From Kiritimatiellota bacterium (lineage in GTDB: Bacteria; Verrucomicrobiota; Lentisphaeria; Oligosphaerales; JAADHN01): DNA of 32,761 nucleotides. Both the position numbers and the translations under genes were made by a program. Below the pieces are notes generated by a model. It was not told the origin of the DNA and ran no database searches. It saw only the letters and a program-made list of their open reading frames with translations. The first letter of the stretch is position 1, and each line of letters begins with the position of its first letter. This document shows, piece after piece, positions 6,433 to 28,806 of the stretch. The DNA is taken from the NCBI GenBank assembly GCA_013151865.1, contig JAADHN010000150.1, forward strand, positions 1 to 32,761, given 5' to 3'.

Positions 6433-6461
6433 GGTTCTCTCCCTATCCAGCCTGGTTTATT

Positions 6462-6487
6462 CGCGCCCCTCGCCCTGGGAGGGCGCG
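6462..6487. repeat. GC palindrome upstream of the SGNH gene
   Basis: CGCGCCC (6462-6468) pairs with GGGCGCG (6481-6487) around a 12-base loop; CTC and GAG inside can extend the stem with one bulge. It sits 30 bases upstream of the SGNH gene start. It resembles the palindromes at 6657-6677 and 26208-26229, all with a C-rich arm, a CCTGG-type centre and a G-rich arm. Confidence 0.5.
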
Positions 6488-6530
6488 ACTCATGCCGGTT
6501 CAAGTTCTTACGTCGACCGGCGGTCCCGGC

Positions 6531-6622
6531 TGTGTCGAAACACCGTCTCGACCGGCGTTTGGCGGCAACGCTCCAAAGATCAGCCAGATGGATCGTCGCA
6601 GCGGGTGGTTCCTGTACAATTC
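6531..6622 (+). repeat. Dispersed 92-nt repeat family R1, copy C
   Basis: Aligns end to end, without gaps, with 15521-15612 (plus) and 28487-28578 (minus). Shared landmarks are TGT.T.GAAACACCGT.TCG at the start, GGC.GCAA in the middle and AAT/GATTC at the end. A hairpin is preserved: ATCGTC (6592-6597), loop GCAGCG (6598-6603), GGTGGT (6604-6609), with three G-C/A-T pairs and three G-T pairs. This copy is the most diverged; a hand count gives 53 of 92 bases equal to the 15521 copy. It lies between the SGNH and MFS genes, antisense to both. Confidence 0.65.
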
Positions 6623-6656
6623 AAGCCGCCTGGCGGATCGAGCGACGCCTTTTCCC

Positions 6657-15383: not shown

Positions 15384-15520
15384 CTCCAGGGGGCGTAGCC
15401 GGGAGCATACGCTCGTCGGGCTTGCGCGCCCCCAAGTTTCCCCGATTAACACACAGGCTTCGTCACGAAATGGCGCAACTCTCACGACTTCAGTTTATTG
15501 CGGCGAGAAACAGGCAAGAC

Positions 15521-15612
15521 TGTATTGAAACACCGTTTCGGTTCGTTGGCGGCAGCAATATCCTGAAAACGTGTGGGATGCGTCATCACAGCAGATGACT
15601 CACGCATGATTC
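15521..15612 (+). repeat. Dispersed 92-nt repeat family R1, copy A
   Basis: Best-preserved hairpin of the family: GTCATC (15582-15587), loop ACAGCA (15588-15593), GATGAC (15594-15599), all six pairs canonical. ATGC (15578-15581) and GCAT (15604-15607) can extend it across a four-base bulge. A hand count gives 70 of 92 bases equal to the minus-strand copy at 28487-28578, with no gap. Starts TGTATTGAAACACCG and ends CACGCATGATTC. It is antisense to the flanking genes. Confidence 0.75.
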
Positions 15613-15622
15613 GGGTTCGCGT

Positions 15623-28209: not shown

Positions 28210-28486
28210 AAGCCCCCCTTCCACAATCTCATCATCACCTGAAGCTGCACGGCGCGCCGTACTCGAGCGCACATGCTCCGGTTCCGAAAACCGAGAGCCC
28301 TCGGGCGCAATCCCCGCAAATGTACTCCCGGACGCCTTCCAGCAAACCCGGACGCTCCCATTTTTTTCCCCGACCGAGCCGGACCGGCGACCTTGCCCGT
28401 CACCCCGGGTATGCGGCACCGCATGAATTGCCTCCCGACCCAAACTTCAGACCGCGGGCCGAGTATTCACCGCACCCAACTCTCTT

Positions 28487-28578
28487 GAATCATGCGTGAG
28501 CCATGTGCTGCGGTGGCGCGTCTCGCACATCTTCAGAACATTGCTGCCCTCCACCGACCGAGGCGATGTTTCAACACG
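28487..28578 (-). repeat. Dispersed 92-nt repeat family R1, copy B
   Basis: On the minus strand it begins CGTGTTGAAACATCGCC and ends CTCACGCATGATTC; the last 12 bases are identical to copy A. The hairpin arms read GCCACC (28517-28512) and CATGGC (28505-28500) around GCAGCA. Four pairs form; the second pair is C-G where copy A has T-A, a double change that keeps pairing. It lies 278 bases upstream of the methyltransferase gene, in the same direction. Confidence 0.75.
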
Positions 28579-28756
28579 GCCTCGCCCAACGTTCGTCCCA
28601 ACAACCTGAATTCCTCCGGGCCGCGCCCTCTCGCAACGACGTTCATTAATCATCCAGGCCAATTCATCGCCTCGAAACAATCTGGAGCGCAGGCGAACCC
28701 GCTGCCTCTGCCGAATCGGTCAGGTTTTTCGGAGACAGCGCATAATAATAACTTCT

Positions 28757-28784
28757 TTGTTAATTGATATAATAATCTTATAGT
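28757..28784 (+). promoter_or_regulatory. Promoter candidate for the long exported protein
   Basis: TTGTTA (28757-28762), 16 bases, TATAGT (28779-28784), inside a 50-base stretch with about 20 percent G+C. A perfect TATAAT is also present at 28768-28773 but has no good -35. The leader to the ATG at 28865 would be about 75 bases. Confidence 0.5.
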
Positions 28785-28806
28785 AAGCACTGGGCGTGGC
28801 AAATCG

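Follow-up and report, generated by a model that had tools for sequence, protein, structure and literature searches.

A three-copy intergenic repeat of a Kiritimatiellota bacterium is probably part of an IS1380-type MITE with a conserved full-length hairpin

The 92-base intergenic repeat present in three copies in the window, a stretch of 32,761 nucleotides from a Kiritimatiellota bacterium, is probably (at about 0.82) part of an IS1380-type MITE, a non-autonomous mini-transposon of about 175 bp. That figure expresses confidence in the class of element and not in the role of its fold. A complete IS1380-family element in a relative of the same class has the same ends and target duplication, and the repeat is therefore a MITE; an IS1380-type transposase most likely mobilises it in trans. 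The palindromic MITE is a known kind of element; what is unusual here is the deep, strand-specific conservation of its hairpin.

The three copies align over 92 bases without a gap, as the sequence-only reading had it. Its agreement counts hold after relabelling (70 positions between the copies at 15521 and 28487, 53 between those at 15521 and 6531), its copies A, B and C being those at 15521, 28487 and 6531, which differs from the order of its coordinates; the copies at 28487 and 6531 share 59 identical positions. The stem pairs are likewise as described, with six of six formed in the 6531 copy, three of them G-U, and two lost from the 28487 copy. The extent was drawn too short, however. Comparison of the copies together with their flanks gives a sharp right-hand limit and conservation for about 55 bp further upstream on the left, and the reported 92 bases correspond to the hairpin apex plus nearly the whole 3' arm of a ~175-base element. 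The full unit is 175 bp without its flanking tetramers and is given as 185 bases with them. The relevant features of the window are as follows.

15441 to 15615, plus strand: full MITE copy, containing 15521 to 15612 (covariance-model match 15437-15621, 142.3 bits, E 7.7e-30)
6451 to 6625, plus strand: second full MITE copy and the one that has diverged furthest (match 6447-6631, 101 bits, E 4.5e-20)
28484 to 28658, minus strand: third full MITE copy (match 28478-28662, 148.6 bits, E 2.5e-31)
15441 to 15457, plus strand: left terminal inverted repeat of the 15441 copy, decayed; family form CCTGATTAATTCATGAA (from alignments; the same ends occur on the IS1380 element)
15599 to 15615, minus strand: right terminal inverted repeat of the 15441 copy, decayed; family form CATGAATTATTCAGG as read on the plus strand (from alignments)

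The 28484 copy is 91% identical to another at L040:2976-3160; the left flanks of the two are similar, and a single duplicated site may be the origin of both. A short A+T-rich stretch, ataagattattatatcaattaacaaagaagttattattatg, lies at 28730-28790 amid G+C-rich DNA, some 80 bp upstream of the 28484 copy.

The repeat is far more abundant than chance would allow. Its core word has 222 near-matches in the host genome, compared with 46 for a reversed control. A covariance model built from 43 copies and searched across the host genome and its relatives places the element at ≥138 distinct loci in the 6.2-Mb host genome when the best 150 candidates are scored (141 matches, three of which are the opposite strand of listed loci), nearly all matched end to end, and is positive in relatives as well. 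Shorter derivatives of ~62-116 bp also occur, in the host (L186, L189, L190) and in relatives (L162, L157, L149, L173, L067); these keep both ends and lack the hairpin centre, the pattern of loss expected of deletion within palindromes.

The assignment to a transposon class rests on the ends and their flanks. The element is 175 bp long, contains no transposase gene and carries the ends CCTGAWTAATTCATG in inverted orientation, as befits a MITE. The younger copies found in genomes G016, G053 and G058 are flanked by YTAR tetramers, identical on the left and right in 44 of 61 cases, against a shuffled mean of 23.4 and a maximum of 34 in 5000 shuffles; the first bases of the paired tetramers are associated at p 7.5e-13. 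In the host genome this target duplication has decayed, and only one position still stands out. A class-wide search for the MITE ends led to IS1380 elements in two genomes, a decayed one in G063 with the same ends and then a complete one in G135 (L283:1298-2918). The latter spans 1621 bp with its tetramers, CTAA on both sides, and has the ends CCTGAATAATTCATAAA and CCTGAATTATTCATAAA. Its 445-aa transposase frame is free of stops and matches PF13701 at E 1e-144 and the NCBIfam IS1380 model (NF033539) at 329 bits, over a cut-off of 180. Terminal inverted repeats of the form CCTGAWTAATTCATRAA are thus common to the MITE and to a complete IS1380-family element of a class relative.

The likeness is confined to the ends, where it extends to up to 21 bp. 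Only the ends of the MITE align to this one complete element, which gives no sign that the interior arose by internal deletion, and the claim is accordingly that the MITE is mobilised by, rather than derived from, IS1380. The only genome seen to contain both the MITE and an IS1380 partner is G135, whose MITE is 170 bases long with a different interior. Neither the host nor the other high-copy genomes, drafts of which break at these repeats, yielded an intact IS1380 transposase with matching ends; the best PF13701 match in the host reaches E 3.3e-5, or 18 bits against the cut-off of 180. Viral contigs contain no exact match to the end, and plasmids and phages no similar DNA. By the proposed mechanism, an IS1380-type transposase would act in trans on the MITE ends, and insertion would take place at YTAR sites, mostly between genes.

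Other transposase families were considered on the basis of the target. Elements of the IS701 family target YTAG, and an IS701-like transposase (PF13546) suspected on that ground is absent from seven of eight genomes, the single match lacking matching ends. IS5 shares the YTAR motif (PMC10359306), and matching ends surround an IS5-like gene (PF01609) in none of 28 loci. A TA-only duplication, as described for IS711 (PMC2266754), is ruled out, since the two tetramers are associated at their first base. Several long end-to-end distances taken as candidate insertion sequences (L182, L168, L143, L098, L004) yielded none, L182 and L168 consisting of separate or truncated elements around other sequence, and no transposase frame is seen in the 1373 bp between end-like sites at L258.

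The whole element is a single full-length imperfect palindrome with the ends CCTGATTAATTCATG../..CATGAATTATTCAGG; the consensus folds with 72 pairs at -101.5 kcal/mol and an apex of GTGT-TGAA-ACAC. A first model finds the element in 8 of 60 genomes and a broader one in 19 of 198 genomes of the class, representing 17 of 86 genera, the host being included in each count. Exact end matches also occur in Lentisphaerae B1Sed10_208R1 and Candidatus Hydrogenedentota B1Sed10_210R1. Nine subfamilies can be distinguished, each with a unit of 183-186 bases and each folding as a long hairpin with the same bulges, despite inner identities of only 21-75% between them. Across an alignment of 30 copies from the subfamilies, 90.0% of cells are paired, compared with 73.2% after shuffling, and 354 cells show double changes, compared with 132.5; none of 500 shuffles reaches the observed values. 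Subfamilies might have become palindromes independently, and clearly homologous pairs were for this reason compared separately. Where inner identity is 55-75%, 36 of 44 doubly changed pairs are still paired and about 10 are expected, which rules out that the covariation stems from palindromes formed repeatedly de novo between identical ends. The conserved fold is this long hairpin and not the small one at repeat positions 62-79 that had been proposed, whose individual pairs are formed in 72-98% of host copies and in 27-100% in other subfamilies, and which is therefore not kept.

Within the host genome, the picture is different. Resident host copies are mostly decaying, as judged from pairing that is hardly above that of shuffled copies (84.5% versus 84.2% of pair cells), from departures from the pairing consensus that are divided between G.T (205) and A.C (173), and from the weak folds of the window copies. 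Compensated changes are in slight excess only, at 48 against 33 expected. None of the three window copies has a fold clearly stronger than that of shuffled sequence (z -1.36, -0.19 and -1.23), whereas a copy from a relative has a z of -12.9, and the covariation among the three could therefore not have carried a conclusion by itself. As to selection on a fold, which the sequence-only reading proposed, strong covariation is seen only between subfamilies; among resident host copies, stem positions vary almost without compensation, the very observation that had been named as telling against it. Selection on source copies only would account for both the strong covariation between subfamilies and the near-neutral decay within a genome. 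Selection seems, then, to act on spreading copies. Copies in G016, most of those in G058 and many in G053 lie only 2-11% from their own consensus. The family appears to be old in the host, where the search turned up no intact IS1380 partner, so the window copies are probably relics.

The hairpin is also strand-specific. When strands are assigned from the conserved ends, the plus strand gives the better fold in all nine consensuses under either set of folding parameters, and in 102 of 108 copies with RNA and 103 of 108 with DNA parameters, subfamilies and copies being related and so not independent trials. The consensuses contain 81 G.T pairs on the plus strand and 28 on the minus. The strand difference fits RNA and single-stranded DNA alike.

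For the role of the fold, the most likely reading, at roughly even odds, is that the element requires the plus-strand hairpin in order to spread, given that the fold is kept in multiplying lineages while inserted copies decay. A stricter form of this proposal is tentative, an appreciable possibility that falls short of probable: the plus-strand hairpin would be a working part of the mobility cycle, with spread occurring only when one strand, as RNA or single-stranded DNA, folds over its full length, making this a DDE-type (IS1380) MITE that depends on a structured strand.

The main rival on the fold, and a rather unlikely one, holds that the palindrome is kept without function in an ordinary palindromic IS1380-type MITE, arm-to-arm correction during replication (template switching) producing the paired changes. 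Palindromes are known to undergo such correction, deletion derivatives without the centre are common here, and the small excess of compensated changes in resident copies is consistent with it. Correction restores Watson-Crick pairs, however, and is blind to strand, yet the source consensuses hold 4-11 G.T pairs on the plus strand and far fewer on the minus; it also sits poorly with the retention of the same bulges and unit length across subfamilies. The strand difference is left unexplained by it.

A host structured RNA or cis-regulator (riboswitch, attenuator or mRNA stabiliser) dispersed in many operons is highly improbable. The strong covariation and the better-folding strand would suit such an RNA, and palindromic MITEs such as ERIC can alter mRNA stability in a given orientation (PMC2229807). 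Against this, by crude ORF-based gene calls in four genomes the copies lie in mixed orientations relative to their neighbouring genes, and neither the window nor the loci of 11 copies contain an Rfam match that reaches the gathering score; target duplications and transposon ends point elsewhere. A host regulatory role is not supported, given the near-uncompensated decay of resident copies and the lack of consistent gene orientation. As a general role it is largely refuted, although single copies could have been recruited. Among the options raised by the sequence-only reading (small RNA, attenuator-like element, hairpin-recognised mobile element), the attenuator is not supported, given the lack of a consistent orientation, and the last came close in naming a mobile element with a conserved hairpin but missed that the hairpin is the whole element. 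Hardly credible at all is a REP/RAYT-like element that a Y1 transposase would move in the form of a single-stranded hairpin. The fold is palindromic and strand-asymmetric, and the host genome has five Y1_Tnp matches, of which four exceed the cut-off, but a duplicated 4-bp target is not expected of Y1 enzymes, the terminal inverted repeats match IS1380, the element is much longer than a REP and no matching ends lie near four Y1 genes (L041-L044).

The IS1380-type MITE bears comparison with several known systems. It shares with the IS1380 family (NF033539, PF13701) the ~17 bp terminal inverted repeat and short target duplication seen on the complete G135 element, but has no gene and a palindromic interior unrelated to the IS. 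IS1247, a published member, is listed with 5 bp repeats (PMC3281130), whereas the duplication here is 4 bp. ERIC/IRU, YPAL/RU-2, Correia/NEMIS and RUP (PMC2229807) are likewise ~100-200 bp, intergenic and of high copy number, with terminal inverted repeats and a predicted long stem-loop transcript; their ends and target are different, several having TA at the termini, and in contrast to them the present element keeps the same length and hairpin through many genera of a class, as followed by covariation. Published piggyBac trees take IS1380 transposases as the outgroup, and the 4-bp TTAA duplication of piggyBac, with rare TTAG and CTAA (PMC10813416), resembles the YTAR found here. The piggyBac elements of that study are animal, and the likeness to the MITE described here is that of the duplication motif.

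Bacterial MITEs are commonly drawn as hairpins, and it is hard to tell from one species whether the hairpin is functional or a by-product. Here, nine subfamilies keep one length and one hairpin by compensatory change, with G.U pairs mainly on one strand, while resident copies decay, a pattern that tells selection during spread apart from selection exerted by the host. The question becomes testable with one IS1380 transposase and a mini-element, and patchy, class-wide intergenic repeats of uncultured bacteria are linked to a transposase family.

Some minor observations concern the placement of copies. YTAG contains a stop codon, and elements can therefore sit directly on a gene end; insertion at a CTAG that supplies the TAG stop of the upstream frame leaves the gene intact. 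At L182:1044-1047 and 2618-2621, two upstream reading frames end in the TAG of a CTAG, and several G016 copies abut the end of a reading frame at exactly the CTAG/TAG stop offset. Elements also lie back to back with one CTAG or TTAG in common (L232:1501-1818, L244, L254 in G053 and the right flank of L082), the duplicated target beside one copy serving as the target for the next. Another repeat, unrelated to the MITE and containing words such as GTCGCAAGTTGAACGACACTCAGAAAGAAAAATGCCCAA, is common to two Lentisphaeria contigs (L168:6070-6170 and, on the minus strand, L150:1-268); in L150 it lies inserted within a MITE copy. Other MITEs in the class, of 170, 144, 118 and 71 bp, have such ends and different interiors. 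Similar YTAR-flanked ends with unrelated interiors are found at L240 and L251 (G009) and at L241 (G011); the interior of the G009 MITE repeats CACGAATG, and its two strands fold about equally well.
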